From Gracilibacillus salitolerans (lineage in GTDB: Bacteria; Bacillota; Bacilli; Bacillales; Amphibacillaceae), in assembly GCF_009650095.1 (NCBI RefSeq), contig NZ_CP045915.1, positions 1,054,001 to 1,118,000 on the forward strand: a stretch of DNA of 64,000 bases. The letters are read 5' to 3'. The translations under genes were made by a program, and so were the position numbers. Shown in pieces: positions 23,033 to 48,232 of this stretch (its first letter is position 1; each line of letters opens with the position of its first letter). Below the pieces are notes generated by a model, which was given only the letters and a program-made list of their open reading frames with translations, ran no database searches and had not been told where the DNA came from.

Positions 23033-23067
23033 TAGTTTGAAATCATCCCTAAAAAGGAGGCAATTTA

Positions 23068-23967: not shown

Positions 23968-23982
23968 AGGGGGGTATTTCTT

Positions 23983-28867: not shown

Positions 28868-30346
28868 ATGGAGTTGACTTTAATAATGAATCAGTCTAAT
28901 AAAAGTATTTCAGAATTAACGAAAGTTTTGAAAGAAGCTATTGGTAAGACACCACCAAATGGAAATCCGCTTGTTTCGCATAAATTTGGTGCTGATCCTT
29001 ACCCACTTATTTATCAAGATCGTGTTTATTTATATGCAACGAATGATGAGATTGAGTATGATGAGAATGGCAATGTGACGGACAATACATATGCAGGCAT
29101 TAACACGTTAACAGTTATTTCTTCATCCGATCTTGTTAACTGGACAGATCATGGAGAGATTCTAGCTGCGGGACCAGATGGAGCGGCTAAATGGGCTAAA
29201 AATTCGTGGGCACCTGCTATTACTCAAAAAGTCATTGATGGAAAGGATAAGTTCTTCCTTTACTTTGCGAATAATGGTAGTAACATCGGAGTTTTGACTG
29301 CAGATTCCCCACTAGGTCCATGGACAGATCCGATTGATCAACCAATCATTTCAAGGGAAACGCCTGGTGTGGATGGTGTACCTTGGATTTTTGACCCGGC
29401 GGTTTTAGTGGATGATGATGGTACGGGCTATCTGTACTTTGGTGGTGGAATTCCGGATGAAGAATACGAGATGCCAAATACTGCTCGTGTGATTCAGCTT
29501 AGTGATGATATGATTCTTACGGTTGGAGAAGCGAAGCCGATTCCAGCACCATTTATGTTTGAAAGTGGTGGTATTAATAAATACAATGGGCGATACTATT
29601 ACTCCTATTGCTCTAACTTCTACACTGGTGACCGTCCGGCGGGAGTTCCAGGAGCAGGGGAGATTGCTTACCTAACGAGTGATCATCCAAAGGGACCATG
29701 GACATACCAACATGCGATTCTAAAAAATCCAGGATATTTTTTTAATGTATCTGGAAATAATCATCACGCGATGTTTGAATTCAAAGGCACATGGTATATT
29801 TCATATCATGCACAAACATTATCGGCAGCGATGGGGATTGAGAAGGGCTACCGTTCGACTCATTTAAATGAAATATATTTTGATGAAGAAGGTCAAATTG
29901 AACCTATTCAGGCTGATCTGCAGGGAGTAGAAAAGGTTAAGAATTTAAATCCATATGAAACGACGGAAGCAGTAACGATGGCTTGGCAAGCAGGAATTAA
30001 TGTGAGCAAACCATCAGATACTAACTTTGATGAGCAAGACCGAGTTGTATCTGAAATTAAGCAAGGTGCTTGGCTAGCTGTTTCATCGGCTGATTTTGAG
30101 CATGCGGCTAAAGAATGTGTGGTTCATCTCGCAAGTGAAACAGAGGGTGCTTCGATTGAAGTACGTTTAGATTCGATAGACGGTGAGATTGTTGGCCAGA
30201 TTGACGTTCCAAACACAGGCGGAAAGTGGATAGAGCTATCCTTCCCTGTAGAAGTGGATAAAGGTATACATGGTGTATACTTTGTGTTTAAAGGAGATTC
30301 TAATCAATCATTATTCGAACTTGCAAGTTGGTCATTTAATAAATAG
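28868..30346 (+). CDS. Glycoside hydrolase family 43 protein with C-terminal beta-sandwich domain
   Basis: 492 residues. Five-bladed propeller GH43 with all three acidic positions visible: base Asp43 in FGADPYPLIY, pKa-tuning Asp176 in WIFDPAVLVD, and acid Glu232 in PFMFESGGIN. The C-terminal ~120 residues (WLAVSSADFEHAAKE ... GVYFVFKGDS) look like a CBM6-type module. Family members cleave arabinosyl or xylosyl linkages. There is no signal peptide, so it probably acts inside the cell on imported oligosaccharides. AGGAGGAGAG at 28840-28849 lies rather far (18 bases) from ATG 28868; ATG 28886 is even farther, so the start is not certain. A dead, exported paralogue lies at 31457. Confidence 0.9.
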   Translation: MELTLIMNQSNKSISELTKVLKEAIGKTPPNGNPLVSHKFGADPYPLIYQDRVYLYATNDEIEYDENGNVTDNTYAGINTLTVISSSDLVNWTDHGEILAAGPDGAAKWAKNSWAPAITQKVIDGKDKFFLYFANNGSNIGVLTADSPLGPWTDPIDQPIISRETPGVDGVPWIFDPAVLVDDDGTGYLYFGGGIPDEEYEMPNTARVIQLSDDMILTVGEAKPIPAPFMFESGGINKYNGRYYYSYCSNFYTGDRPAGVPGAGEIAYLTSDHPKGPWTYQHAILKNPGYFFNVSGNNHHAMFEFKGTWYISYHAQTLSAAMGIEKGYRSTHLNEIYFDEEGQIEPIQADLQGVEKVKNLNPYETTEAVTMAWQAGINVSKPSDTNFDEQDRVVSEIKQGAWLAVSSADFEHAAKECVVHLASETEGASIEVRLDSIDGEIVGQIDVPNTGGKWIELSFPVEVDKGIHGVYFVFKGDSNQSLFELASWSFNK

Positions 30347-31456: not shown

Positions 31457-33033
31457 TTGTTGAAAATTATAAGGGTATTAATGTTTCACTTATTTTTCTA
31501 ACTGCATGTCAAACTATGAATGAATCGGACGAGGTATTAGAGCAAAATGAAAGTCAAGTAGTAAAAGAAAATGAAGAGGGAGCCAGTTTAGATAATGCTA
31601 CCCAAGTAATTCCGAAAGAACCTATAGGGAAAGTACCACCTAATCATAATCCGATTTTAGCTCATCAATTCGGTGCAGATCCTTATGTCCTCGTTTTTGA
31701 GGATCGTGTGTATCTTTATAATACGTATGATCAATTTGAGTATGATGCAGAAGGTAATATTATAGAAAATTCATATGCAGGTATTAATCAATTATCGGTT
31801 GTTTCATCCGCTGATTTAGTTAACTGGACAGATCATGGTTTGATTAATGTTGCAGGGCAAAAAGGAGCTGCAAAATGGGCAACTCAATCATGGGCACCAG
31901 CAGCAGCTCACAAGGTAATCGAAGGGGAAGACCGCTTCTTTCTCTATTTTGCGAAATAATGCAAGTGTATTGGTGTTTTAACTAGTGATAGTCCAATTGG
32001 GCCGTTTGAAGATCCAATTAATGAACCATTAATTTCATGGTCAACTCCAGGAGTAGAAGGTGTAACATGGCTATTTGATCCAGAAGTAATCGTGGACGAT
32101 GATCAGACAAGCTATTTATATTTTGGTGGTGGAATTCCTGAGGAAGAATTTGCGATGCCAAACACAGCACGTGTCATTCAATTAGGTGAAGATATGATTA
32201 GTGTTCAAGGGGAAGCAGAAATGATACCAAGTCCATTTATGTTTGAAAGTGCAGGTATTAATAAATGGAACGACACTTATTATTACACGTATAGTACTAA
32301 CTTTTATGATGGTGAACGTCCAGAAGGTAGTCCAGATGGCGGGGAAATTGCTTATATGACGAGTGATCAGCCAATGGGTCCATGGGAATACAAAGGTACC
32401 ATCTTGAAAAATCCAGGTCATTTTTTTGAAGTTGGAGGCAATAATCATCAAGTATTATTTGATTTTCATGATCAAACCTATATCGCTTATCACGCACAAA
32501 CACTTGCTGATGCACAAGGTGTTGCTCTAGGTTATCGTTCCACACACTTTAATCAAGTGTTTTTTAACGAAGATGGGTCCATTCAAGAGATTGAAGCGAA
32601 TTTATCAGGTGTTGAATCGATTAAAACGTTAAATCCTTATGAAAATGTTCAAGCTGAAACTATGGCATCGAGTACGGGGATTACAGTTCAAGACTTCGAG
32701 ACGGATGAGAATGGCTTTGGATTAGCTGTGACAGAGATTGAAGCGGGTGATTGGATTGCCGTTTCATCCGTTGATTTTGAAAATGGTGCAAATGAAATTT
32801 CTGCTACCGTTGCAAGTGACTCAGAAGGTGGAATGATAGAAATTATATTGGATGACCCAACTGGATAGTTACTAGGAACCATCGAAGTTCCGATAACTGA
32901 CGGATGGGAAGAATGGCAAACGATAACGACGGATATTACATCAGTTGATGGGGTGCATGATGTCTATTTTGTATTCGATGGCACAGAAGAAACGCTATTA
33001 TTTAATTTTGATTATTGGTATTTCATTAAGTAG
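31457..33033 (+). pseudogene. Inactivated GH43 lipoprotein, paralogue of the intact GH43 enzyme
   Basis: Begins at TTG with AAAGGAGG upstream. The protein aligns along its length with the enzyme at 28868 (FGADPYVLVF, WLFDPEVIVDDD, PFMFESAGIN), but carries three lesions: a frameshift near 31470 between the signal start LLKIIRVLM and the in-frame lipobox FLTACQTMNE; TAA at 31957, where FANNGSNIGV has become FAK-stop-CKCIGV by compensating indels; and TAG at 32866 in DDPTG-stop-LLGTIEV. The frame then continues to 33033. It was originally a surface-anchored version of the cytoplasmic enzyme. Confidence 0.85.
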
Positions 33034-33148
33034 TTTATAAAAATTAATGTCATCCATACTTTTATCCTGATTAAATCCATAAAATTATTCCAGAAAGTAA
33101 TCTTTATTATTTACAAATCATATAAGATTTTTATTTTAGATTGAATAG

Positions 33149-33256
33149 CAGGCGACGACACCTGCAGGAAAAGCATGAGTCTTGAGTCACCGCAGTGAGT
33201 GGAGCGATCGAGGAGGCTCAAACCATGCCTTTGGAAAGCGTTCGCCTGAAGTGATT
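33149..33256. repeat. Bacillaceae dispersed intergenic repeat (GCGACGAC/CCTGCAGG/GGAGGCTCA type)
   Basis: The ordered words GCAGGCGACGACACCTGCAGG, CACCGCAGTGAGTGGAGCGA, GAGGAGGCTCA and GGAAAGCGTTCGCCTGAAG match a well-known family of roughly 100-base GC-rich repeats in Bacillus-group intergenic regions. The ends (AGGCGA/TTCGCCT) are inverted. Not coding. Confidence 0.65.
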
Positions 33257-33471: not shown

Positions 33472-34833
33472 GTGAAAAAGCTCATCATATCTATCTTTTT
33501 ATTGCTTTTGTTTACCCTTGTTGCATGTAGTAGTAACGATGATACCGCTAGTGAAGATGTGGAAACAGATGATACGGAAACAACAGAAGAAGTATCGGAT
33601 GAAGGGGAAGAAACGGAAGAGACAGTCGACTATTATCAGACTCCTGAAATGGACTTTGACTTAGGTGGTCAAACAATAAAGGTTGTTGCTTGGTGGGATA
33701 TGGAGATTACAGGTGAAGATCCAGACAGTATTCAAGCACGTGAAAATTTAGAAGCATTAAAGGAAAAACACAATTTTGATATCGAATATATCACCATTGA
33801 TTTTGGTGAATATCAAGAGCGAATTACTGCTTCTTTATTAGCAAATGAACCAGTTGGTGATCTTATACGTGTAGGTAAGAAATACACTATCCCTTCATTT
33901 GCTCAGCAGGATTTAGTGTGGGCGGTTGATGAATGGGTTAAAAATGAAAATGTATTTAACTTACAATTCACAGAAGATATTTTTCAATATGAAGGACAGG
34001 GATATGCTTTTACCGACGCAAAAGCTAATATAGTTCAAGGTCTATTTTATAATCGTACATTAATGGATGAATTAGGTTTGGATCCGATTCAAAATTACAT
34101 TGATGAAGGTAACTGGAATTGGGATACATTTGCGGAAGTTGTGGCATCAGCAAATCTAGATACAAACAATGATGGCCAAATTGATACTTGGGGATTAGCG
34201 AATCCATCCGTTTTAGAAAGAGCATTGGCGTCTAATGATGCAGCGTTAACGGCCGGAAATGAGCAAACATTAGATGCTCCCGCAACAGTTGAAGCATTAG
34301 AATTTACAGCTTCTATATTCGAACTAGCGCGACCAACGGAAGGTGGCGATTGGACGGAGCCAGAACAATTCTTCCGTGAAGGAAATACATTGTTTTTTAC
34401 TGGAGCAGACTTCCATTATAACGGTATTGTAAATGACATGCCTAATTATGACATTGGTTTTGTTCCATTCCCTATTGGTCCAAATGCTGATGGATATAGA
34501 ACGTATGAGGCTGATATTCAAGCAATCGCCATTCCTAAATCGGTAGAAAATCCTGAACAACTACTTTATATTTGGGAGAAAATTTTCGATGTTCAATCTA
34601 TCTATGATTATCCTGGTCAAGCGCAATTAGAATCCATGTTTGCCAATAAAGATGATATCGAGAATGCTAGATTAGTTATGGAAAATTTAAATGTACTTGA
34701 TCACTTTACGTTTAATAATGATGTTTATTGGAACTTTGAAGCTGAATTATTAGAGGGCACAGCAATTTCAACTCTCATCGAAAGTCATGCACCAGCCTTC
34801 CAGGCAGCAATAGACGAAGTTTACGCTGAGTAA
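33472..34833 (+). CDS. Sugar ABC transporter solute-binding lipoprotein
   Basis: 453 residues from GTG 33472 (GGGAGG nine bases upstream). Lipobox LVAC near residue 19, then an acidic Thr/Glu-rich linker of about 35 residues. The mature domain is a family 1 binding protein (IKVVAWWDMEITG, PVGDLIRVGKKYTIPSF), with a calcium-like acidic loop DTNNDGQIDTWG near residue 237. It is first in the large operon, separated from the next gene by a hairpin, which should keep it at higher level than the membrane components. Confidence 0.9.
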   Translation: MKKLIISIFLLLLFTLVACSSNDDTASEDVETDDTETTEEVSDEGEETEETVDYYQTPEMDFDLGGQTIKVVAWWDMEITGEDPDSIQARENLEALKEKHNFDIEYITIDFGEYQERITASLLANEPVGDLIRVGKKYTIPSFAQQDLVWAVDEWVKNENVFNLQFTEDIFQYEGQGYAFTDAKANIVQGLFYNRTLMDELGLDPIQNYIDEGNWNWDTFAEVVASANLDTNNDGQIDTWGLANPSVLERALASNDAALTAGNEQTLDAPATVEALEFTASIFELARPTEGGDWTEPEQFFREGNTLFFTGADFHYNGIVNDMPNYDIGFVPFPIGPNADGYRTYEADIQAIAIPKSVENPEQLLYIWEKIFDVQSIYDYPGQAQLESMFANKDDIENARLVMENLNVLDHFTFNNDVYWNFEAELLEGTAISTLIESHAPAFQAAIDEVYAE

Positions 34834-34856
34834 CTGTACATTCAATAAAGCTGGAT

Positions 34857-34890
34857 AAGTGCCTACTAATAAAATGTAGGCACTTTATCT
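34857..34890 (+). terminator. Intra-operon hairpin after the binding-protein gene
   Basis: Perfect 10-base stem AAGTGCCTAC/GTAGGCACTT followed by TATCTTCT. It is a partial terminator or mRNA-protecting hairpin, typical after binding-protein genes. Confidence 0.65.
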
Positions 34891-34923
34891 TCTAACAAAG
34901 AAAAGATAAAGGGAGGGAAAATA

Positions 34924-37842
34924 GTGCGTATATTCAAAAGCAATATATTTCGTATTATTTTAGTCCTTATCATCTTTATTTCTTCAATATGGATCTATGA
35001 TTCTAGAAATAAAGCCAATCAGCATTATTCACAAGCCATTACGGACTTTGAAGCAGTAAACTCGGATAAAAGTGAGGCAAGTTATGATAACTATCTAGAA
35101 AACTATTCGACTGAGAGTAAACCTGATCAAGTGATACGAATAGAAGGTGAGGATTTTGTAGAAGCAGATGTCAATGATTTTAAAGTGATGGATGATTTTA
35201 ATGGCTTAGATGGACCATCTATTTTTACTCCAGAACAAGGTTCCATATCATGGGAAGTGAATATTGAAGATGCTGGCTTGTATAATATACGGATCCATTA
35301 TTACCCGATTGAAGGAAAGAGCTCAGCCATTCAACGAGAAATAAATATTAATAATGAATTACCATTTATGGGTGCTGATTATGTCCTTTTTGATCGTATT
35401 TGGGTAGATCGGGATGAGGAAATACTACGAGATGAAAATGATAATGAAATTCGTCCGAGACAAGCAGAACAGCCTGAATGGGTTCTTGCATCATTTAAAG
35501 ATAGTGAAGGTTATTTTAATGAACCTTATCTTTTTTATTTTGAAGAAGGAACCCAAAGAATAACGTTAACTTCAAAACGAGAACCGATGGTCATTGATTA
35601 TATAGAGCTCTATCAAGATCCAGTAGCACCAACATATGAAGAAAAGAAGTCAGAGTATGAACAGAATGGGTTGAAATCAACAACTGATCAGTTCATTAAA
35701 GTCCAGGCAGAAGATGCTGTTAGAAAATCCTCAGCAACTTTATTTCCTTTAACAGATCGAACAAGTCCAACTGTTGAACCTTACCATGTATCGAAATTAC
35801 GGGTGAACGCGATCGGCGGACAAAATTGGAAAATGCCAGGCCAATGGATTGAATGGGAAGTCGAAGTAGAAGAGGAAGGCCTTTACCAAATTGCATTCAA
35901 AAGAAAGCAAGATTTATTAAGAGGGGTATATTCATCTCGAACACTAACGATAAATGGTGAAGTTCCTTTTCAAGAGATGAATGTTATCCGATTTAACTAC
36001 AACTTAGATTGGACGACAGATATATTAGGCAAATCAGATGATGCACCTTATTTATTTCATTTAAAAGAAGGGACCAACACGATTCGATTGAGTGTAACAT
36101 TAGGAGATATTTCTCCATTATTGAGAACTATTGAATCCAGTGTACTCGAACTTAATGAAATGTATCGGAAAATATTAATGATTACATCAAATACACCTGA
36201 TCCATTGAGAGATTATCAATTGGAAAAACGAATTCCAGACATGCTAGATGTTTTCGAAGAACAGGCTGAAATTATTAAAAGTGTAGCCGACCATTTAGAA
36301 ATGATAACAGGAGAACGTAGTGATAAAGTTGCTGTTATTCACTCTACTGTTAGCCAATTAGAGAAGATGGTTGCTAAGCCAGAAACAGTTGCACGTCAAC
36401 TGGACTCCTTCAAAATGAATGTTGGTGGGTTAGGTACATGGATACAAACTGTTCGTGAACAACCGATGACGTTAGATTATTTAATTATATCCTCTCCTAA
36501 TGTGGAAATGCCGAGGCCAAGTGCAACAACATTTGAAAAAGCAAAACATGAAGTTGGGGCTTTTTTTGCATCTTATTCTGAGGATTATGACAATATTGGC
36601 AGTACAAAAGATTATCGTAACGTTGATGAAGAAATCACTGTATGGGTGACAACAGGTCGTGACCAGGCTCAAATCTTAAAAGGAATGGCGGATGATTTGT
36701 TTACCCCTGACACTGGTATTTCAGTTAACGTTCGTCTCGTTCAACCTGATGTTCTTTTACCAGCCACGTTAGCAAATGAAGGTCCTGATGTTGCTTTAAA
36801 TTTGGGCGAAGATGTTCCCGTAAACTATGCGATGCGTAATGCTGCGCAAGATTTAACAATTTTTGACGACTATGAGGAAATTGTGACGCGTTTTCACGAA
36901 AGTGCCGTACTACCTTTTGCATTTAATGAAGGCGTTTATGCTCTACCTGAGCAACAAATGTTTCCGGTTATGTTTTATCGCTCAGATATCTTAAAAGAAT
37001 TAGAATTAGAGCCGCCAAAGACATGGGATGATGTGTATAACATTATTTCTGTCTTACAACGAAATAACTTAGAGTTTTATTTACCGATTGATGATCCAAT
37101 GGCGCAAAATCAAACATTGCTTGCTCCTAATCAAGCATTCGGTATGCTTCTTTATCAAAAAGATGGTGAATTTTATGCAGACGATGAAAAATCGACTGCT
37201 TTAGACGATGAAATCTCGATTGATGCCTTTAATCAATGGACACAATTTTATACCAACTATAAGTTTCCATTGATGGCTGACTTTCCGAACCGATTGAGAA
37301 TTGGAGAAATGCCTATCGGAATCGCTGATTATACAACCTATAATATGCTAACTGTTTTAGCCCCTGAAATAAGAGGATTATGGGAGTTTACGACAGTTCC
37401 AGGAACGGTACAAGAGAATGGAGCGATTGATCATACGGTACCAAGTACGAGTATCGCTTCTATGATGCTAGAAAACTCTGAGAATAAAGAAGCAGCATGG
37501 GCATTTTTAAAATGGTGGACGGAGAAAGAAATACAACTAACTTTTGGTCGGGAAATGGAGAGTATTTTAGGAGAGGCAGCACGTTATCCAACAGCTAATA
37601 TCGAAGCGTTAGCCGAATTACCATGGCCAGTTGAAGATTATCAAAATCTTGCAAGTCAGTGGCAATGGGTCCAAGGAGTTCCCCAAGTTCCAGGAGGCTA
37701 TTTTACGGGGAGACACCTTGATAATGCTTTTAGGCGTGTGGTTAATGCTAATGAAAATCCTCGAGAAGCTATACAAGACTACGCACGGTATATAAACGAT
37801 GAGATTGAAATTAAACGGAAAGAATTTGACTTACCTTACTAG
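34924..37842 (+). CDS. Membrane-anchored fusion of carbohydrate-binding-like domains and an ABC solute-binding domain
   Basis: 972 residues, more than twice a normal binding protein. A single N-terminal membrane span (IILVLIIFISSIWIY), no lipobox; two beta-sandwich segments each opening with a CBM6/35-like phrase (VIRIEGEDFVEADV near 70; FIKVQAEDAVRKSS near 258) and ending VIDYIELYQ or NTIRLSVTLGD; a helical linker (about 415-560) resembling coiled coil; and from about 568 a family 1 binding domain (EEITVWVTTGRDQAQILKGMADDLF ... WAFLKWWTEKE). It probably captures a polymer or long oligosaccharide at the membrane and hands it to the permeases that follow after 18 bases. The domain names are by pattern. 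Confidence 0.8.
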   Translation: MRIFKSNIFRIILVLIIFISSIWIYDSRNKANQHYSQAITDFEAVNSDKSEASYDNYLENYSTESKPDQVIRIEGEDFVEADVNDFKVMDDFNGLDGPSIFTPEQGSISWEVNIEDAGLYNIRIHYYPIEGKSSAIQREININNELPFMGADYVLFDRIWVDRDEEILRDENDNEIRPRQAEQPEWVLASFKDSEGYFNEPYLFYFEEGTQRITLTSKREPMVIDYIELYQDPVAPTYEEKKSEYEQNGLKSTTDQFIKVQAEDAVRKSSATLFPLTDRTSPTVEPYHVSKLRVNAIGGQNWKMPGQWIEWEVEVEEEGLYQIAFKRKQDLLRGVYSSRTLTINGEVPFQEMNVIRFNYNLDWTTDILGKSDDAPYLFHLKEGTNTIRLSVTLGDISPLLRTIESSVLELNEMYRKILMITSNTPDPLRDYQLEKRIPDMLDVFEEQAEIIKSVADHLEMITGERSDKVAVIHSTVSQLEKMVAKPETVARQLDSFKMNVGGLGTWIQTVREQPMTLDYLIISSPNVEMPRPSATTFEKAKHEVGAFFASYSEDYDNIGSTKDYRNVDEEITVWVTTGRDQAQILKGMADDLFTPDTGISVNVRLVQPDVLLPATLANEGPDVALNLGEDVPVNYAMRNAAQDLTIFDDYEEIVTRFHESAVLPFAFNEGVYALPEQQMFPVMFYRSDILKELELEPPKTWDDVYNIISVLQRNNLEFYLPIDDPMAQNQTLLAPNQAFGMLLYQKDGEFYADDEKSTALDDEISIDAFNQWTQFYTNYKFPLMADFPNRLRIGEMPIGIADYTTYNMLTVLAPEIRGLWEFTTVPGTVQENGAIDHTVPSTSIASMMLENSENKEAAWAFLKWWTEKEIQLTFGREMESILGEAARYPTANIEALAELPWPVEDYQNLASQWQWVQGVPQVPGGYFTGRHLDNAFRRVVNANENPREAIQDYARYINDEIEIKRKEFDLPY

Positions 37843-37860
37843 GATAGGAGGTGTGTATAA

Positions 37861-38841
37861 ATGAAAGCAAAGTCAATAGAACAACCCGTAAAGGACATTG
37901 TCTATCCGAAACAAGAAGTAGCTCGTAATTCAAATAGAAACAATAAGTGGCAACGTTTAAAGCGAGATATGAAGAAGGCTAAACACTATTATCTTTTGAT
38001 GGCACCTTTTATGGTTATTTTTCTATTGTTTACGATAGTGCCTGTTGTTGCCTCGTTTGTCTTAAGTTTTTTCTCCTTTAACATGTTAGAAATGCCGAAA
38101 TTTGTTGGCTGGGATAATTATTCGAGGTTGTTTCTAAGTGATGATGTATTTATGACAGCTTTGCGAAATACGCTTGTGTTTGCCGCCATTACCGGACCAC
38201 TAAGTTACATTGCCTGTTTTATTTTTGCTTGGATCATTAATGAGTTATCACCGAAGATTAGAGCTTTTATGACGGTTATCTTCTATGCCCCTTCCATTGC
38301 AGGGAACGTATTTTTTATTTGGTTAATCATTTTCTCAGGTGACGCTTATGGTTATTTAAATGGATTCTTAATGGAATTTGGGATTATTTTAGAATCGATT
38401 CAATGGTTAAGAGACGAACAATACGTTCTAGGAGTAGTTATACTAGTGCAGTTGTGGCTGAGCTTAGGAACAAGTTTCATCGCCTTTATTGCCGGTCTCC
38501 AAACTCTTGATAAGTCTTTAATTGAAGCAGGTGCAATTGATGGAATAAGAAACAGATGGCAAGAACTTTGGTATATCACCTTGCCATCGATGAAGCCACA
38601 GTTGTTATTCGGTGCTGTTATGCAAATCACTCAGTCATTTGCTGTTGCTGATATTTCCATTGCACTTGCAGGGTTTCCGAGTGTCAATTATGCAGCACAC
38701 ACGGTCGTTACACACTTAATGGATTACGGGACGATCCGTTTTGAAATGGGTTATGCTTCAGCGATAGCCACCGTCCTATTCCTATTAATGGTTGGTACAA
38801 ATATACTCGTTCAAAAACTACTGAGAAAGGTGGGAACATAG
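37861..38841 (+). CDS. Sugar ABC transporter permease, MalF type (first pair)
   Basis: 326 residues; a basic cytoplasmic tail of about 45 residues, six membrane segments (YYLLMAPFMVIFLLFTIVPV first) and the EAA loop LIEAGAIDGIRNRWQELWYI, where the usual Ala-Ala is Ala-Gly and IDGAS is IDGIR. ATAGGAGG precedes the ATG. It pairs with the next gene, which starts one base after its stop. Confidence 0.93.
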   Translation: MKAKSIEQPVKDIVYPKQEVARNSNRNNKWQRLKRDMKKAKHYYLLMAPFMVIFLLFTIVPVVASFVLSFFSFNMLEMPKFVGWDNYSRLFLSDDVFMTALRNTLVFAAITGPLSYIACFIFAWIINELSPKIRAFMTVIFYAPSIAGNVFFIWLIIFSGDAYGYLNGFLMEFGIILESIQWLRDEQYVLGVVILVQLWLSLGTSFIAFIAGLQTLDKSLIEAGAIDGIRNRWQELWYITLPSMKPQLLFGAVMQITQSFAVADISIALAGFPSVNYAAHTVVTHLMDYGTIRFEMGYASAIATVLFLLMVGTNILVQKLLRKVGT

Positions 38842-38842
38842 G

Positions 38843-39697
38843 ATGCGGCTATTTAACAAACGGCTCAACCGTTCATTACCAGTTACGACTTTATTATTCT
38901 TATTTTTAGCGGTTTTTGGAATGTTTATGGCATTACCACTTGTTTACGCAGTAAATAATGCTTTTAAACCGTTAGATGAGCTCTTTATTTTTCCACCAAG
39001 ATTTTTTGTCCGAAATCCAACCTTAGATAACTTTTATGATTTAGTAGCCGTAATGGGTGATTCATGGGTCCCTATTTCACGTTATTTCTTTAATACGATA
39101 CTGATTACCGTATTTGGTACGGGTGGTCACATTATATTTGCATCAATGGCTGCTTATCCATTAGCAAAATATAAATTTCCAGGTTCAAAAGTTATCTTTC
39201 AAATTGTTATTTTAGCTTTAATGTTCTCTCCTCATGTAACAGCAATTCCGAACTATTTGGTAATGTCAGGTCTAGGCTGGATTGATTCCTATCTATCGCT
39301 CATTATTCCAGCAATGGCATTCCCGTTAGGATTATTCTTAATGAAGCAGTTTATGGAACAAATTCCAGATGCCATGTTAGAGGCAGCCAAGATTGATGGT
39401 GCCAGTGAATTTCATATTTTTTGGAAAATAGTGATGCCTAACGTAAAGCCAGCATGGTTAACGTTACTCATTCTCCAATTTCCAATCCTTTGGGGGACAA
39501 ATGGTGGAAACTTTATTTATAGCGAAGAATTAAAAACGTTAAATTATGCGTTAGAACAAATTACTGAAGCAGGTATAGCTCGTGCAGGTGTTGGTGCAGC
39601 AGTTGCGCTGATTTTAATGAGTGTACCAATTATTCTATTTATTGTTTCCCAAAGTAAAGTAATAGAGACGATGTCAAGCTCAGGTATGAAGGATTAG
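38843..39697 (+). CDS. Sugar ABC transporter permease, MalG type (first pair)
   Basis: 284 residues with the EAA loop MLEAAKIDGASEFHIFWKIV near residue 180 and a typical six-span profile. Translational coupling to the partner gene is implied by the one-base gap. Confidence 0.94.
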   Translation: MRLFNKRLNRSLPVTTLLFLFLAVFGMFMALPLVYAVNNAFKPLDELFIFPPRFFVRNPTLDNFYDLVAVMGDSWVPISRYFFNTILITVFGTGGHIIFASMAAYPLAKYKFPGSKVIFQIVILALMFSPHVTAIPNYLVMSGLGWIDSYLSLIIPAMAFPLGLFLMKQFMEQIPDAMLEAAKIDGASEFHIFWKIVMPNVKPAWLTLLILQFPILWGTNGGNFIYSEELKTLNYALEQITEAGIARAGVGAAVALILMSVPIILFIVSQSKVIETMSSSGMKD

Positions 39698-39709
39698 AAG
39701 GGGGTTAAT

Positions 39710-41167
39710 ATGATGTTAATAAGATTAAGAAAAATATGTCTATCCCTTCTTGCTACTTTTGTTATCTATTCGACGTTTTGTTTAGATATGGTCACTGTTC
39801 AAGCAAGTGCAGATCAATCTTCATACAATTACTCATATTGGGAAGAAGCTGTACCAGCGCCTCCCGCCTACTTACCAACAATGGTTATAAATGGACATGA
39901 TCTTGGGATTGACACCTTTAATATACCGAATGATATTCATGTATCTTCTGAACATGATATTTATATAGCAGATACAGGTAATAACCAAGTTGTTATTTTA
40001 AATGAGGTGTTTGAGTATAAAAATACAATTGATTCCTTCACAAATGAAGGTGCACAGGAAACATTTTCGAGTCCTGAAGGTGTATATGTAACAAATGAAA
40101 ACCATGTCTACGTAGCAGATACAGGTAATAACCGTGTTGTTCATTTAGATGAAAAGTTTGATTTGGTCAAGATTATTGATGCTCCAGAGTCAGAAATGTT
40201 GTCCAATACATTTTCTTTTCGACCAAAAAAAGTAGCAGTAGATGATGCGGGCCGAACTTTTATTCTTTCAGAAGGCGTCTTTGATGGATTCATGGAGTTT
40301 TCGGTTGATGGTTATTTTACGACGTTTATAGGTGCGAATCGAGTGCAAGTTGACTCAATAGATTATTTATGGCGTCGATTTGCTACTCGTGAACAGCGAA
40401 GTCAAATGGTTATGTTTATTCCAACTGAATTTACTAGTTTAGACCTTGATGAAGATGGCTTTATATATGCAACGAATATAGATAATACAGATGACGTGAT
40501 TAAAAAAATTAATGCAAGAGGCGATGACATTTTAAGAAGGGAAGGCTATTTTGATCCAATCGGTGATATTGATTACGACAGGGATCAAGGACCTTCACGA
40601 CTAATTGATATTGCTGTTGCTGATCATGGAATTTATTCCGCATTAGATTCAACAAGAGGAAGAATTTTCACCTATAACAATGATGGATTCCTCATGTATG
40701 TTTTTGGAGGGTTAGGAAATAAAATGGGTGAATTCCATACTCCGATAGCTATAGACCGATTTGATGAATTTTTTCTTGTATTGGATCGAGAACTTGGGGA
40801 GATTACAGTCTTCCATTCAACAGCATATGGTAATTCAATTGATGAAGCGGTAAGGAGTTATGAACAAGGTGATGAAGAAAGAGCGCAAGCATTATATGAA
40901 GATATCACCAATATGAATATTAATTTAGAGTTTGCCTACACAGGTATTGGAAAAGCTCTGTTGCGTAAAGATGAATTCGAGGAAGCGATATATCATTTTG
41001 AACAGAGTCTTGATCAAGCAAATTATTCTAAAGCTTACCTACTATATCGGAATGAAGTATTACGTGAGAACTTCTCATTAATGATGGGCATTATCTTTTT
41101 AGTGATTGGCTTATCGATTGGTTTTTCTGTTTATCGGAAAAAATCAAAAAGAAAGAGGGTGTCTTAA
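39710..41167 (+). CDS. Extracytoplasmic NHL-repeat protein with TPR-like segment and C-terminal membrane anchor
   Basis: 485 residues. Signal peptide (LSLLATFVIYSTFCLDMVTVQA), then NHL beta-propeller repeats (IYIADTGNNQVVIL, VYVADTGNNRVVHL, SRLIDIAVADHGIYSAL) to about residue 375, a TPR-like pair of helices (SYEQGDEERAQALYEDI; EEAIYHFEQSLDQANYSKA), and a C-terminal membrane span (LMMGIIFLVIGLSIGFSVY) with a basic tail. It would expose a binding propeller on the outside. It is tightly packed between a permease and a Yip1 protein, so it is likely a structural partner of the transporter. Molecular role unknown. Confidence 0.82.
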   Translation: MMLIRLRKICLSLLATFVIYSTFCLDMVTVQASADQSSYNYSYWEEAVPAPPAYLPTMVINGHDLGIDTFNIPNDIHVSSEHDIYIADTGNNQVVILNEVFEYKNTIDSFTNEGAQETFSSPEGVYVTNENHVYVADTGNNRVVHLDEKFDLVKIIDAPESEMLSNTFSFRPKKVAVDDAGRTFILSEGVFDGFMEFSVDGYFTTFIGANRVQVDSIDYLWRRFATREQRSQMVMFIPTEFTSLDLDEDGFIYATNIDNTDDVIKKINARGDDILRREGYFDPIGDIDYDRDQGPSRLIDIAVADHGIYSALDSTRGRIFTYNNDGFLMYVFGGLGNKMGEFHTPIAIDRFDEFFLVLDRELGEITVFHSTAYGNSIDEAVRSYEQGDEERAQALYEDITNMNINLEFAYTGIGKALLRKDEFEEAIYHFEQSLDQANYSKAYLLYRNEVLRENFSLMMGIIFLVIGLSIGFSVYRKKSKRKRVS

Positions 41168-41794
41168 ATGGAAAAAGAGATGATAAAAAACCCTTTTCAG
41201 TTAATAGTTCGTCCTTTTCAAAGTTTTTGGGAATTAAAATACGAATTAAATCGAAAAGAGAATATAATTCTGTCTTTCATCATTTTAATTGCCTTAATTA
41301 TTACCAATATATTAAGTAGTCAATACGCTGGCTTTGTCGTTAATATATACAATCCAAATGAAATGAACAGCATCATGGAAATCGTTTATGTAGTTGTTCC
41401 ACTATTATTCTGGTGTATAGCAAATTGGTCATTAACAACATTGATGGATGGAGAAGGAAAGTTTGTGGAAATTTTTATCGCAACATGCTTTGCGTTAACT
41501 CCACTAGTCATTATTAATTTTCCGTGGATACTACTTAGCAATTTTCTATCCCATCAAGAAGCGATGTTCTATTATTTATCACAAAGTTTTGCTGTCATTT
41601 GGTTTATCTTTCTAATTTATGTCGGGACGATGACCGTGCACCAGTATACACCAGGAAAGACAACAATAACGATATTTCTAATCATTATAGCCATGGGGTT
41701 TCTCGCCTTCTTAAGTTTACTGTTTTTTAGTTTGATACAACAAATAAGTTCATTTCTTATTACAATTTACCGAGAGTTTGTCTTAAGGTACTAA
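41168..41794 (+). CDS. Yip1-family membrane protein
   Basis: 208 residues, five hydrophobic spans. MIKNPFQLIVRPFQSFWELKYE followed by NIILSFIILIALIITNILSS is the bacterial Yip1-domain pattern. It starts immediately after the NHL gene's stop. The bacterial family has no established role; constant pairing with NHL and DUF5696 genes next to CUT1 permeases points to a membrane platform. Confidence 0.8.
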   Translation: MEKEMIKNPFQLIVRPFQSFWELKYELNRKENIILSFIILIALIITNILSSQYAGFVVNIYNPNEMNSIMEIVYVVVPLLFWCIANWSLTTLMDGEGKFVEIFIATCFALTPLVIINFPWILLSNFLSHQEAMFYYLSQSFAVIWFIFLIYVGTMTVHQYTPGKTTITIFLIIIAMGFLAFLSLLFFSLIQQISSFLITIYREFVLRY

Positions 41795-41810
41795 GGGGGG
41801 AGAGTCAAAA

Positions 41811-44360
41811 ATGAGCAAAGTCATAATGAGAAGCCTACTTGCTTTGTTTCTAGTGCCGATCCTAATATCTGGCTGTTCTAATACGAATACGGCTGATGTA
41901 GATGAAGTAGATTTATCAGATATGGAAGTGACGCAAGACCAGCCTATAAAGGCAGCTTTTGATGATCGTCGATTAAAAGGGATGATTGGAATTGCTGAGA
42001 ATGATTATTTACAGCTATTTGTAGATAAAGAGACAGCTAGTATTGCCGTTATCAATAAACAAAATGATGAAATTTGGTACAGTAATCCACCGGATAGAGA
42101 CAAGGATCCGATTGTATCTGGTATTAATAGTGATATTTTGTCTTCACAAATGCAATTAAGTTTCTATAATAATTTTGGCCAAAGTAGTAATATGAATTCC
42201 TATTCGGACAGTGTTGTTTATGAGCAATTTAGCATTGAGCCGATTGAAGATGGAGCTAAAGTTCGTTATCAATTTGGAACAAATGAACGTACAGCGGCTG
42301 ATTTACCATTGATGTTAAGCAAAGAGAGATTCGAAGAATTATCTGGTCAACTTGATGGAACAGGACAACGAGCATTAATGATTGCCTATCGAGAGAATGC
42401 AGAGACTGGAATATATGAAAGAAACGATGGAGCATTAACAGGTATGCAGTTAGAACGTGCTTTTCAAGCTTTTGAAGATGCAGGCTATACCGAGGAAGAT
42501 CTTGAAGAAGATAGGAATGAATTAAACTTTACTCAAGAAAGTGAAAATAATCGTGTTTTTATTGCCGCTGTTGAATATGAGCTTGAAGATGATAGTTTAC
42601 TAGTTAAAGTTCCTACAGAGGAGATTTATTATACACCTGACTTTCCGATTCATAGTATCTCATTTTTAAGATACTTTGGGGCGGCTGGGACAGAAGAAAC
42701 AGGCTCTATCTTCGTTCCTGATGGATCTGGTTCATTAATCCATTTCAACAATGGTAAGACAAATGTACCTTCTTACCAACAGTCGGTTTATGGTCAAGAC
42801 TTAGCACTACTTGAGTCCAATGATGCGAGAACAAATGAAGTAATTAGACTTCCTGTTTTTGGTTTGATAAAAGAGGAATCAGCGATGCTAGCAATTATTG
42901 AGGAAGGTGCAGCAAGTGCAACAATTAGAGCTGATGTAAGTGGCAGACTGAATAGTTATAATTTCGTATATCCTAGCTTTACAGTAATTAATAAGGATGA
43001 TGTCTCTTTACAGGCAGAGGACCAAGAACGTTCTTTACCTAGATTTCAAGAAGAAAAAATGAAATCGGATTTTTCCGTTAGGTATGTATTTTTAAGCGAT
43101 AACGATGCTAACTATAGTGGAATGGCGCGTTACTACCAAAATTACTTAGTAGAAAACGATCTAATTAGAAGTAATCAGCAGTCAGAACAATTAGATGATA
43201 TTCCGTTTTATGTTCAACTCGTAGGAAGTGTTAATAAGCAACAACATTTTGCGGGTGTTCCTTATCAAGCATTACAACCATTAACGACGTTTGAGCAAGC
43301 AGAACATATTTTTGAGGAATTGACGGCTCGTGATGTAAACAATTTAAAGGTAAATTATATTGGTTGGTTTAATAAAGGTATGAACCATAGTGTTCCGTCC
43401 AAGGTTCGTGTGGATCGAGCTATTGGTGGTGAAAAAGGATTTAAAAACTTTATAGATTATGCTGAGGAACAAGGTATTCGTGTCTTTCCTGAAACGGCAT
43501 TATTACAAGTTCATAATGATTCAGGTTTTAAGTCTCGAACAGAAGCCTCTCGTACGTTAACAAATTTACCAGCATCAACTTATCCGATTAACCGAGCATT
43601 AAATAAAAGAGACCGATCAAAAGATCCGCAATATTCGTTATCACCAAGATATGTGGAAGAATATACAAGCCAGTTTGTAGAAGAACTTATTCCGTTTGAT
43701 ACAACAGGTGTAACGTTAAGAGATTTGGCTGATGTCTTAAATAGTGATTTTAGAAGGAATGAGCAAATAGATCGTATTGAGTCTGAAGAAATATCCGTTC
43801 ATGCTTTAGAAATGCTCTATGAGAAAGATTTAGAGATGATGGCACATGGCGGTAATTTATATTCATTACCGTATTTAACGGATGTAATCAATGTACCACT
43901 TGGTCATACAGGTTTTAAAATTCAAGATGAAGCGATCCCATTCTATCAAATGGTCTTACGTGGCTATGTTGATTATGCTTCAACGCCTTTTAATTTATCG
44001 ACTTATTTAAATGATCAAGATTATATATTAAACGTACTTGAATACGGGTCCAATATAAACTTTCAATGGATTTATGAATCGAATGATGAATTAAAAAATA
44101 CGAGCTTTGATCATTTATATGCTGTTAATTATGAACGTTGGGTCGATCAAGCAACAGAAATTTATCATGAAGTTAATGAGGTGCTTAGGCAAACAAAAGG
44201 TGAAACGATTCGTTCACATGAAAGCCTAGAAGAAAATGTTTATAAAACTACTTATAATAATGATTTCTACATCATCGTAAATTATGGTCTAGAGCCAGTT
44301 ACAATCGATGGTTATACGGTTGAACCTCAAAGTTATTTAACGGGAGGTGAAGATGGATGA
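41811..44360 (+). CDS. Large DUF5696-type surface lipoprotein
   Basis: 849 residues. Lipobox LISGC near residue 22. The first ~400 residues look like beta-sandwich (SIAVINKQNDEIWYSNPP; IFVPDGSGSLIHFNNGK). From about 460 a region with barrel-like strand-helix alternation (VNNLKVNYIGWFNKGM; KNFIDYAEEQGIRVFPETALL; VTLRDLADVLNSDF) resembles glycoside-hydrolase TIM barrels with a preceding sandwich domain, so a surface glycosidase is possible; no catalytic pair is proved. AGGGGGGAG lies before the ATG and its stop overlaps the next permease start by four bases. Confidence 0.78.
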   Translation: MSKVIMRSLLALFLVPILISGCSNTNTADVDEVDLSDMEVTQDQPIKAAFDDRRLKGMIGIAENDYLQLFVDKETASIAVINKQNDEIWYSNPPDRDKDPIVSGINSDILSSQMQLSFYNNFGQSSNMNSYSDSVVYEQFSIEPIEDGAKVRYQFGTNERTAADLPLMLSKERFEELSGQLDGTGQRALMIAYRENAETGIYERNDGALTGMQLERAFQAFEDAGYTEEDLEEDRNELNFTQESENNRVFIAAVEYELEDDSLLVKVPTEEIYYTPDFPIHSISFLRYFGAAGTEETGSIFVPDGSGSLIHFNNGKTNVPSYQQSVYGQDLALLESNDARTNEVIRLPVFGLIKEESAMLAIIEEGAASATIRADVSGRLNSYNFVYPSFTVINKDDVSLQAEDQERSLPRFQEEKMKSDFSVRYVFLSDNDANYSGMARYYQNYLVENDLIRSNQQSEQLDDIPFYVQLVGSVNKQQHFAGVPYQALQPLTTFEQAEHIFEELTARDVNNLKVNYIGWFNKGMNHSVPSKVRVDRAIGGEKGFKNFIDYAEEQGIRVFPETALLQVHNDSGFKSRTEASRTLTNLPASTYPINRALNKRDRSKDPQYSLSPRYVEEYTSQFVEELIPFDTTGVTLRDLADVLNSDFRRNEQIDRIESEEISVHALEMLYEKDLEMMAHGGNLYSLPYLTDVINVPLGHTGFKIQDEAIPFYQMVLRGYVDYASTPFNLSTYLNDQDYILNVLEYGSNINFQWIYESNDELKNTSFDHLYAVNYERWVDQATEIYHEVNEVLRQTKGETIRSHESLEENVYKTTYNNDFYIIVNYGLEPVTIDGYTVEPQSYLTGGEDG

Positions 44361-45271
44361 AAATCACGAGCAAATTAACAAAATCATTACAGTCATACGA
44401 AGGTCAAAAGGCATTTTGGGGATTTATATTTGTTTCACCATGGTTGTTAGGGTTTGTGTTTTTTTTCCTAGTTCCATTACTCACGTCTCTTCGATATAGT
44501 TTTAGCAAAGTAGAGGCGAGTTCTTCAGGTATCCAAACAACCTTTGTTGGACTCTCTAATTATATGGAAGCGATTCTTGTTAATCCGAATTTTAATAGGC
44601 AATTAATAGAATCTATTTTAGATATTGTTATTGATGTTCCTCTAATATTGATCTTTAGCTTGTTTGTATCTGTAATCTTAAATCAGCAATTTCTCGGTCG
44701 CTCTGTTGCACGTTCCATCTTCTTTCTCCCTGTTATCTTAGCTTCAGGCGTCATTATTAATTTAGAGGCAGAAAGTCTTGTGCAAGCAATTAATCAGCAA
44801 CAAGCTACAAGTGGAGGATTATCGAATGCATTAGGATCGTTTGAATTAGCAAGAATTATGCTGGGAGCCGGTGTTAATCCAACAATCGTAGAGTATCTAA
44901 CAGGATCAGTAGGGCGAATATATGAAATTGTACGACTTTCTGGTGTCCAGATTTTAATTTTCTTAGCAGGTATTCAAACTATTTCACCATCTGTTTATGA
45001 AGCGGCAAAAACGGAAGGTGCAACAGGTTATGAAGCATTCTGGAAAATCACATTACCAATGGTTAGTCCGCTCATTCTTGTAAATCTTGTTTATACCATC
45101 ATAGATTCATTTGCTAGAAGTCCAGTGACAGATTTGATTTTGGAAACTGGCTTTGATGCCTTCAACTTTGGTCTAAGTTCTGCGATGGCATGGGTCTACT
45201 TTATCTCCATTATGTTGATATTAGGCGTTAGCTCCTATATCATTTCGAAAAAAGTTTTCTATCAAGAATAA
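44357..45271 (+). CDS. Sugar ABC transporter permease, MalF type (second pair)
   Basis: 304 residues, opening FWGFIFVSPWLLGFVFFFLVP. The EAA loop (VYEAAKTEGATGYEAFWKI) is near residue 213; TEGAT replaces the common IDGAS. The extracellular loop before it is longer than usual (QQATSGGLSNALGSFELARI). It overlaps the DUF5696 gene, so that protein and this channel are made together. Confidence 0.92.
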   Translation: MKITSKLTKSLQSYEGQKAFWGFIFVSPWLLGFVFFFLVPLLTSLRYSFSKVEASSSGIQTTFVGLSNYMEAILVNPNFNRQLIESILDIVIDVPLILIFSLFVSVILNQQFLGRSVARSIFFLPVILASGVIINLEAESLVQAINQQQATSGGLSNALGSFELARIMLGAGVNPTIVEYLTGSVGRIYEIVRLSGVQILIFLAGIQTISPSVYEAAKTEGATGYEAFWKITLPMVSPLILVNLVYTIIDSFARSPVTDLILETGFDAFNFGLSSAMAWVYFISIMLILGVSSYIISKKVFYQE

Positions 45272-45368
45272 AGTTAAATGGACGAATAGGAAATGAATCA
45301 TTCGATATTGGATTACTATGTATGGAGGTTTGGAGAATATTAAAATTTCTATAAAAAGGATGAGTTCT

Positions 45369-46313
45369 ATGACTATATGGAATACTATCACGTTTGACAA
45401 GATTAAACGTTGGAGTTGGTCGTTTGTCCGTTTTGTATTAATGGCGGGGTTATCATTTGTGATTCTTTATCCAATTTTACAAAAGATTTCAACAGCAATT
45501 AAACATCAGAGTGATTTATATTCACCAATAGTAATTTGGATTCCAGAAAATTTCACTTTAGAAAACTTTATTAGTGCCATGTCGATTATGAATTATTGGG
45601 AGACCCTTTTCAATACAACGATTTTGGCGACAGTAACAACGATTTTAACGACAGCATCCTGTGCGCTTGCAGGCTATGCCTTTGCAAGACTTAGATTTAA
45701 AGGAAGTAAAATTCTTTTTGCCGGTGTGGTTATGACTATTTTGGTTCCACCAACAACGATATTGATTCCAATGTATATGAACTTAAGGGATTTTAGCTTG
45801 GGAGGTATCATTCCTTTATTAACAGGAGATACGGTCAATTTACTCGATTCTTATTGGCCATTTATTTTAACTTCAATTACGGCAAACTCATTAAAAGCCG
45901 GTCTGTACATTTTTATATTCACCCAATTTTTTAGAGGTATTCCGAAAGCGATTGAAGAAGCGGCATATATAGATGGTGCAAGTGTGGGAAAAACATTTTT
46001 TAGAATAATGTTACCGAATGCAAAACCAGCGATTGTTACAGTTATGTTGTTCTCCTTTGTTTGGCAATGGAACGACAGTTTTTATACAACAACATATTTG
46101 ACATCAGCAAATGTAATGTCAACGCAGCTTTCATCATTACCTCATAATTTAGCCATATACTTAGAAGGTTCTACTTCCAGTGTTGATCCCTTCTACTTGA
46201 GTATGGTGCAAGATACAGGTATTTTATTAGGCATGCTACCTTTAATTATTCTTTATTTATTTGTCCAACGTCATTTTGTTGAAAGTGTTAAACAAACAGG
46301 AATTGTTGGTTAA
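45369..46313 (+). CDS. Sugar ABC transporter permease, MalG type (second pair)
   Basis: 314 residues from ATG 45369, chosen for AAAAGG about nine bases upstream; ATG 45360 and 45318 are in frame but poorly spaced. EAA loop IEEAAYIDGASVGKTFFRIM near residue 215. It is the last gene of the large operon, 97 bases after its partner. Confidence 0.92.
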   Translation: MTIWNTITFDKIKRWSWSFVRFVLMAGLSFVILYPILQKISTAIKHQSDLYSPIVIWIPENFTLENFISAMSIMNYWETLFNTTILATVTTILTTASCALAGYAFARLRFKGSKILFAGVVMTILVPPTTILIPMYMNLRDFSLGGIIPLLTGDTVNLLDSYWPFILTSITANSLKAGLYIFIFTQFFRGIPKAIEEAAYIDGASVGKTFFRIMLPNAKPAIVTVMLFSFVWQWNDSFYTTTYLTSANVMSTQLSSLPHNLAIYLEGSTSSVDPFYLSMVQDTGILLGMLPLIILYLFVQRHFVESVKQTGIVG

Positions 46314-46570: not shown

Positions 46571-48232
46571 ATGAAAAAGCATTTAGAGTTATGGGGTTTG
46601 GTTACATGTTTAATAGGTTGTTTTTTAATAGGTTGTAATCCGGAAGAATCAGATAATGAAGAATTAGATACCACTAATACTCAGGTAGAAACTGTTTATC
46701 AACATAAGGGTTTAAACCGTTACGAAGAACCAATTGTTCTAAAAATAATCGGTGAGATAAGTGATAATGTTAGGGGGCTAGAAGATCAGTTTCCAGGCGA
46801 AACATTAAGAGATAATCGTTGGACAAAGCTTTATAACGACATGCTAGGTATTGAAATACAATACGAATGGATTGTAGAAAGCCCTTTTTACTATCAAAGG
46901 TTAGCAAATGAGATTGCTTCTGGTAATTTACCGGATGTAGTGAAGGTTGATGCAGTACAAATGAGACAATTAGCGAATGCAGGATTAATACAAGATTTGA
47001 CGACTGTTTTTGAATCATATGCTACACCTTTCACCAAATATGTTATGAGCCAAGAAAGTATAGATCCGTTTGAAGCAGCTAGGATGGATGAAAAATTAAT
47101 GGGGATCCCAGAAGTTATATCTGACCTTGATACAATGCAGTATATTTGGATTCGTACAGATTGGTTAGAAAATCTAGATTTAGATCCACCGAACACAATG
47201 GAGGATTTATTAGTTATTTCGAAAGCGTTTACACATAATGACCCAGACCAAAATGGAGAAGATGATACGTATGGTTTAGCCGTTACTAATTATTTATGGA
47301 ATAACATTGGTGGTTTAACTGGTTTTATGGCAGGCTTCCAAGCATATCCCACAACTTGGTTAGAAACGAAAGATGGCCAATTAGTATACGGGGGGATACA
47401 GCCCGAAGTAAAAGAAGCTTTAAGTGTACTACAAGATATGTATCATGACGGTCAGATTGATAGTGAATTTATGTTTAAGGACGGTAATAAAATTAAAGAA
47501 CAAGTGAAAAATGGTGAAATTGGAATGCTATTCGGAGAGCAATGGGCCTCTTTCTTTGTAGAGGATAGTCTAAATGCAAATCTAAAAGCAGATTGGCAAG
47601 CCTTTCCGATTGTATCAGCAACAGGTGAGCCGCCTAAAATGCCAATTAGTCACCAAGTAGATTATTTCTGGGTAGTTCGAGCAGACTTTGAATATCCCGA
47701 AGCTCTTGTGAAATTGATTAATTTGCATTTAGAAAAGAATTGGGGAGAAACTGCTGATTATGAGTATTATTATAGCACCCCTTATCCTGTTTGGCAGTTT
47801 TCACCTGTAACACCGTATCCGGTATTGAAAAATTTAGAAGCATATCGAGATTTAGAATATGCAAGACAGACAGGGAATAATAGCAATCTCTATGGGGAAG
47901 CAAAAGCTATTCATGAAAGAATAGAAGCCTATCTAAATGAAGGTGAAAAAACTGGCTGGGGTTGGTATAAAACTTATTCTTCAGATGGTGCTTACTCGAT
48001 TTTGGATAAGTTTTTGAAAAATGATCAAATTTTATTTGACAAATTTATATCACCACCAACTGAAACGATGATTGAAATGGATACTATCTTAATGAACCGC
48101 CAATTGGATTATTATCAAAATATAATATTAGGAAATCCGACTAGTGAGTTTGATAGATTTGTGAATGACTGGAAAGAAGTTGGCGGCAATATTATGACAG
48201 AAGAAATAAATAACATATACCGAAATGACTAA
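46571..48232 (+). CDS. Sugar ABC transporter solute-binding lipoprotein, LplA type
   Basis: 553 residues, long form of the family 1 binding proteins. Lipobox LIGC at about residue 22 and again nearby; mature domain with NDPDQNGEDDTYGLAVTNY (acidic calcium-like loop near 220) and GEIGMLFGEQWASFF. It lies directly before a YesM/YesN pair, an arrangement in which binding protein, sensor and regulator form one sensing and uptake unit. GGGGAGG precedes the ATG. Confidence 0.9.
   Translation: MKKHLELWGLVTCLIGCFLIGCNPEESDNEELDTTNTQVETVYQHKGLNRYEEPIVLKIIGEISDNVRGLEDQFPGETLRDNRWTKLYNDMLGIEIQYEWIVESPFYYQRLANEIASGNLPDVVKVDAVQMRQLANAGLIQDLTTVFESYATPFTKYVMSQESIDPFEAARMDEKLMGIPEVISDLDTMQYIWIRTDWLENLDLDPPNTMEDLLVISKAFTHNDPDQNGEDDTYGLAVTNYLWNNIGGLTGFMAGFQAYPTTWLETKDGQLVYGGIQPEVKEALSVLQDMYHDGQIDSEFMFKDGNKIKEQVKNGEIGMLFGEQWASFFVEDSLNANLKADWQAFPIVSATGEPPKMPISHQVDYFWVVRADFEYPEALVKLINLHLEKNWGETADYEYYYSTPYPVWQFSPVTPYPVLKNLEAYRDLEYARQTGNNSNLYGEAKAIHERIEAYLNEGEKTGWGWYKTYSSDGAYSILDKFLKNDQILFDKFISPPTETMIEMDTILMNRQLDYYQNIILGNPTSEFDRFVNDWKEVGGNIMTEEINNIYRND

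Follow-up and report, generated by a model that had tools for sequence, protein, structure and literature searches.

The closest described relatives of the locus presented here are importers of the CUT1 family of ATP-binding cassette (ABC) transporters (MalFGK2-E and MsmEFG-K types), which share with it an SBP_bac_1 solute-binding protein (SBP), BPD_transp_1 permeases with EAA-type motifs and an operon lacking an ATPase gene, a situation for which the multitask ATPase MsmX is a described precedent (PMC5730181). In the beta-1,2-gluco-oligosaccharide importer of Listeria innocua, Lin1841 is the binding subunit for Sop3-5 (PMC12369401), and the available excerpts on this system describe one binding subunit plus a transporter, without mention of NHL, Yip1 or DUF5696 proteins. 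Outside transport, the alpha-N-acetylgalactosaminidase NagBb of glycoside hydrolase (GH) family 129 has two catalytic residues, one of which is Asp435, while the GH129-like DagB has been argued to lie outside GH129 proper (PMC5698469). Here, we analyzed a 64,000-nucleotide stretch of the Gracilibacillus salitolerans genome (contig NZ_CP045915.1, positions 1,054,001 to 1,118,000; hereafter the window), in which nine collinear open reading frames (ORFs), all on the + strand at 33472-46313, encode a predicted importer of this kind and differ from the CUT1 systems above by two permease pairs, an anchored SBP of 972 amino acids (aa) and three extra envelope proteins that travel together with them.

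Conservation and co-evolution of an eight-gene cassette

The block starts with an ordinary solute-binding lipoprotein (453 aa, 33472..34833, lipobox-like LVAC) and a fused binding protein with a C-terminal SBP domain (972 aa, 34924..37842), both assigned to SBP_bac_1 by Pfam. These are followed by permease pair 1, consisting of P1A (37861..38841; EAA-like motif EAGAIDG) and P1B (38843..39697; EAAKIDG), a protein combining an NHL propeller with TPR repeats (485 aa, 39710..41167), a Yip1 membrane protein (208 aa, 41168..41794), a DUF5696 lipoprotein (849 aa, 41811..44360) and permease pair 2, consisting of P2A (44357..45271; EAAKTEG) and P2B (45318..46313; EAAYIDG), with all four permeases belonging to BPD_transp_1. 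The successive gaps measure 90, 18, 1, 12, 0, 16, -4 and 46 bases. A first-pass annotation of the sequence had described nine collinear genes mostly 0-18 bases apart or overlapping, including a four-base overlap between the DUF5696 gene and a permease gene (P2A); ORFs, Pfam families and coordinates agree with this description, save for the two gaps of 90 and 46 bases.

Eight of these genes, namely those for the fused SBP, P1A, P1B, NHL-TPR, Yip1, DUF5696, P2A and P2B, constitute a conserved cassette and are one evolutionary unit. A profile search of 299 sampled genomes of the order (Bacillales) returned 58 full-length DUF5696 matches across 44 genomes, and independent searches with an NHL profile and a fused-SBP profile each recovered 44 genomes, the same 44, with three and two candidates per genome scored, respectively, such that extra copies are undercounted and a genome could have been missed. 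Left out of the 44 were genome G060, whose match over the cut-off spans 71 residues inside a GH129 gene, and 14 further genomes with weaker partial DUF5696 matches. The order fused SBP-P1A-P1B-NHL-(Yip1)-DUF5696-P2A-P2B was kept at all 58 loci; a strict rescan separated these into 57 that keep the gene order and one (L071) whose NHL-Yip1 part is split over two ORFs. On named genome contigs, a set comprising the best 80 of 581 relatives and hence skewed towards close relatives, 75 of the 80 loci were complete (67 with separate Yip1 and 8 with NHL and Yip1 fused), while the remaining five comprise four located at contig ends and one with broken ORFs. The linkage between the fused SBP, the second permease pair and the three envelope genes, on which the first-pass annotation had staked its proposal, thus holds across the order, and a chance neighborhood is ruled out by the shared genomes and the recurring order. 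Two Lederbergia-type cassettes (L124 and L125) came from records whose titles, Bacillus subtilis DE0224 and Paenibacillus bovis DE0126, may be wrong.

Across the phylum (Bacillota), a full or near-full DUF5696 match was present in 37 of 398 sampled genomes (39 were over the cut-off, two with partial matches), and from 56 matches, 54 of them new, 40 loci were retrieved. The cassette order was kept at 20 of these, one being cut by a contig end, and was rotated at six, where NHL-DUF5696-P2A-P2B precedes fused SBP-P1A-P1B; four loci were too short to classify, and the last ten carried only NHL-DUF5696-P2A-P2B in the retrieved stretch. The proposed linkage is therefore only partly retained at this distance, since the fused SBP and pair 1 do not stand alongside in those ten loci. 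Clostridia show two submodules, one made of the fused SBP and pair 1 and the other of NHL/Yip1/DUF5696 and pair 2. The ten loci belong to seven genomes, and all seven encode fused-SBP relatives elsewhere, which defines the two submodules as dependent on each other at the genome level. An ordinary SBP gene was located within two genes of seven of the ten separated blocks, three of these seven being confirmed by Pfam. DUF5696 proteins also occur in Listeria species, including L. rocourtiae and L. booriae (P0225, P0226 and P0228), with about 42% identity to a Sutcliffiella-type query.

The components also changed together. Pairwise distances of seven components correlated with r of 0.93-0.97 in a mirror-tree analysis of 155 loci, in which the species background is still included, and with r of 0.91-0.97 among 33 pairs of paralogous cassettes within one genome, which exclude the species background and are not mutually independent. 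For pair 1 against pair 2, the values were 0.94-0.96 over the 155 loci and 0.94-0.95 within genomes, whereas the ordinary upstream SBP reached only 0.86-0.90 (118 loci). Upstream, this SBP gene was present in 46 of the 58 loci from the order, 72 of the 76 on contigs and 5 of the 25 phylum loci having both ends. Given its absence from part of the loci and its weaker co-variation, we count the cassette as eight genes; the idea of nine genes as one unit stands for eight of them, with the ordinary SBP more loosely coupled.

Envelope proteins, binding proteins and the ATPase

The window DUF5696 protein (PF18952, 715 bits against a cut-off of 25.6; lipobox-like ISGC) has its closest named relative in Gracilibacillus thailandensis (96% identity). 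Profile comparisons link it to NagBb and DagB: a profile of 57 DUF5696 members matched GH129 or GH129-like structures (5wzn, E 1e-6; 8rzg and 5opq, about 2e-5), and hhalign aligned DUF5696 with 18 GH129 proteins at a probability of 78.5 (E 1.7e-5, 316 columns, 17% identity), the control alignment with fused SBPs reaching 0.8. Judged from these results, DUF5696 and the GH129 glycosidases are distantly related. PF18952 and PF11308 occurred together in 37 of 120 listed GH129 relatives; PF11308 appeared neither in the Pfam table of the window protein nor among the 25 families listed for the 57 DUF5696 proteins (E<=1; 15 more families, each in at most one protein, fall outside this list). The Pfam PF18952 model also matches true GH129 proteins, so that database annotations mix DUF5696 and GH129.

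What sets DUF5696 apart from NagBb and DagB is the replacement of most GH129-invariant acids, as well as its position, which was always within a transporter cassette in the loci examined. Among 144 non-redundant DUF5696 proteins, compared through the alignment at 17% identity, GH129 position D535 is Ser in 86, Ala in 35 and Asp in only 2, D544 is Ser in 123, D583 is Ala in 86 and E541 carries mixed residues, while Asp is kept at D545 in 127. The window protein keeps one of the seven acids examined, D646, which is Asp in 127 of the 144, and within the barrel-like part no column has an acid in more than 130 of the 144 proteins. Since NagBb Asp435 itself was left unmapped in this comparison, we infer from the acid pattern as a whole that catalysis has probably been lost. 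With most of the invariant acids replaced, a role of DUF5696 in binding glycans seems more likely than one in trimming them, and the suggestion of a surface domain that trims an oligosaccharide before uptake is disfavored accordingly.

The neighboring NHL-TPR protein has its NHL propeller assigned by Pfam, TPR repeats below the cut-off and membrane segments at both its N- and C-terminus, and Yip1 (PF04893, 56.8 bits, over the cut-off) has five membrane segments. In the window, the two genes share one reading frame, with a single stop codon (TAA) between them in the joint TAAATG at 41165-41170. They form one gene at 41 of 58 order loci and at 8 of 80 contig loci, are separate at 16 of 58 and are split in L071; Yip1 was detected by Pfam in all five long NHL forms scanned, once below the cut-off. 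The fused or separate state changes at least six times in a FastTree phylogeny that covers 155 rows (93 with separate genes, 60 with a fused gene and two unassigned) and has many weak branches and long-branch warnings.

The fused binding protein carries a membrane segment at its N-terminus, two stretches with a weak resemblance to carbohydrate-binding modules (CBMs), a helical stretch and the C-terminal SBP domain. Its earlier description as a fusion of a CBM with a binding protein is upheld for the SBP domain and weak for the CBM part: no CBM model reached the cut-off in the window protein, and among 31 orthologs the glycan-module matches were weak (Golvesin_C in 23 and CBM_35 in 11, E up to 0.1). 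The best relative of its SBP part in the PDB is Lin1841 (5ysb; E 6.4e-14 by sequence and 1.5e-21 by profile), whereas the ordinary SBP has a weak relative there, the arabino-oligosaccharide-binding protein 6rjy (E 2e-7). With SBP_bac_1 in both binding proteins and heterodimers of BPD_transp_1 permeases bearing an EAA-type motif in all four subunits, which we take to be the ATPase-coupling motif, both pairs can be classified as CUT1. The cassette contains no ATPase gene; the genome has two MalK-type (PF17912) genes, neither inside the window, and beside one of them no permease ORF was seen within 3 kb. Four EAA-type permeases and no ATPase in the cassette suggest that an MsmX-type ATPase from elsewhere probably drives both pairs, making the sharing of one ATPase, as the first-pass annotation had envisaged, plausible.

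Genomic context and candidate substrates

While the cassette stays, the neighboring substrate genes change, being directed at xylan, beta-1,2-glucan or other polysaccharides. SOGP or PF10091 (beta-1,2-glucan-type) genes, the latter corresponding to family GH144, lie near 30 of the 41 order loci with fused NHL-Yip1, compared to none of the 16 with separate genes. GH10 genes lie near 4 of these 16 loci, near L071 and near 35 of 71 separate contig loci, and other neighbors include GH43, GH127, GH42, GH5, GH9, GH38, GH28, GH31, GH26 and a pullulanase-like protein. The SOGP and GH3 genes beside fused-type cassettes resemble the lin1839-1840 cluster that accompanies Lin1841 (PMC4757417, PMC12369401). 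By a crude hydropathy rule, a signal-peptide-like start was missing from 145 of 184 matched enzyme ORFs; applied to SBPs as a positive control, the rule recognized such a start in 101 of 115 and in 37 of 40. Such starts were rare in SOGP (0/14), GH35-like (0/21), PF10091 (3/19), GH43 (3/38, and 0/4 for further ORFs), GH3 (5/25) and GH127 (0/5) proteins, so that most enzyme families, except GH10, point inwards.

In the window itself, a GH43-CBM6 enzyme is encoded upstream on the + strand (28868..30346), a hint of a pentose-polymer substrate. A second GH43-CBM6 gene just upstream of the block (31460-33034) is apparently interrupted by in-frame stops, with only 32092-32868 open, and 10 kb upstream another SBP gene with two ORFs of about 290-300 aa (21758-24852) has the layout of an ordinary single-pair importer. 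A dispersed repeat had been suspected at 33148-33255; in a search of the genome, this segment matched only itself. An Rfam scan of the window gave no matches, and since promoter and terminator sites were predicted less often than in shuffled sequence, we claim no operon boundary.

Downstream, also on the + strand, follow a binding protein (46571-48232), a YesM-like histidine kinase (48269-50038) and a response regulator (ending at 51626), all outside the cassette. Relatives of this set occur at three further loci (L032, L033 and L035) and, without the regulator, at L036. These genes are likely a substrate sensor, for which CuaD and its two-component system offer a precedent of SBP-dependent sensing (PMC10384115); the likeness lies in the SBP-kinase-regulator arrangement beside the cassette, the difference in its being a neighbor outside the conserved eight genes.

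Models of cassette function

We consider that the chances are about even that the cassette encodes two CUT1-type ABC importers that form an obligate pair, share an envelope apparatus and feed cytoplasmic enzymes. Importer A would comprise the membrane-anchored fused SBP, with its glycan-binding-like modules and SBP domain, together with P1A/P1B, and importer B the ordinary lipoprotein SBP together with P2A/P2B, both probably powered by the MsmX-type ATPase. DUF5696, GH129-like and probably without catalysis, would serve as an additional glycan receptor at the surface, and the NHL-TPR-transmembrane-Yip1 protein as a membrane scaffold organizing it. Glycan fragments, probably long or cyclic, would enter the cytoplasm to be broken down by enzymes without signal peptide, and the exchangeable SBPs and enzymes adjoining the cassette would determine specificity. 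The assignment of each SBP to a permease pair, the length of the glycan chains and the assembly of the cassette proteins into a single physical complex are what we infer from these comparisons.

Several observations weigh against this reading. As the submodules lie apart in ten of 40 phylum loci, one operon is not required for making both, and three of the ten separated blocks have no adjoining SBP. Nearest-neighbor agreement among the components was only 57-74% over the 155 loci. Of the 58 DUF5696 proteins at order loci, only eight show a lipobox, and most have a different N-terminal membrane or signal segment. GH10 proteins are mixed, with 28 of 58 carrying a signal-peptide-like start and looking secreted, and cytoplasmic xylanases would also fit ordinary oligosaccharide import.

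In an alternative model, two ordinary CUT1 importers would work independently on different products of one polysaccharide, share an operon for co-regulation and use NHL, Yip1 and DUF5696 as accessories of pair 2 only. The EAA motifs in both permease pairs, the separate loci of the two submodules in some Clostridia and the ordinary SBP adjoining seven of the ten separated blocks all favor this model; however, the all-or-none presence in 44 of 299 order genomes and the co-evolution of pairs 1 and 2 across unrelated substrates, within genomes as well, speak for dependence, and we regard independent importers as a tentative possibility. A control function, in which DUF5696 and NHL-TPR-Yip1 monitor glycan at the surface and act through pair 2 by gating or signaling while import is left to pair 1 and the fused SBP, could draw on the sequence relationship of the NHL ectodomains to PknD sensor propellers (1rwi) and on the separate SBP-kinase-regulator set adjoining the cassette in the window and some relatives. 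Yet that set already provides a sensor, and NHL also matches many non-sensor propellers, which makes such a control complex improbable. DUF5696 could finally be a catalytically active glycosidase at the surface, trimming the substrate ahead of its import, as its homology to GH129 would allow: next to the widely kept D646, acids persist at positions E579 (61 of 144; Glu 33, Asp 28, against Asn 25 and Tyr 22) and D537 (29 of 144; Asp 22, Glu 7, against Arg 69), so that some members may be active, which also counts against a pure receptor role. With one of seven invariant acids left in the window protein, Asp at D535 in 2 of 144 members, no acid column above 130 and a single gene beside chemically unrelated substrates, odd for a specific hydrolase, we find this very doubtful for the family as a whole.

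The obligate importer pair can be extended to a bolder proposal, which we think unlikely to be correct: an equivalent, in monoderm bacteria, of the SusCD/TonB route, in which an ATP-driven surface machine would combine two ABC engines, one with the CBM-bearing fused SBP and the other with a pseudo-glycosidase receptor, tied together by an NHL-TPR-Yip1 scaffold, and would import entire or cyclic polysaccharide chains beyond the reach of ordinary CUT1 importers, with depolymerization in the cytoplasm. Searches of the open-licence literature on Yip1, NHL, xylan, sophoro-oligosaccharides and CUT1 returned no description of the cassette, subscription papers being mostly outside the search. A unit as widespread as this one, present in 44 of 299 order genomes and with DUF5696 in 37 of 398 genomes of the phylum, thus includes a protein family that no paper in the open-licence literature was found to name. 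If the obligate pair of importers is correct, it would account for the uptake of large hemicellulose or beta-1,2-glucan fragments by many Bacillota, would assign functions to DUF5696 and to a bacterial Yip1, and would provide a two-engine ABC system to study.

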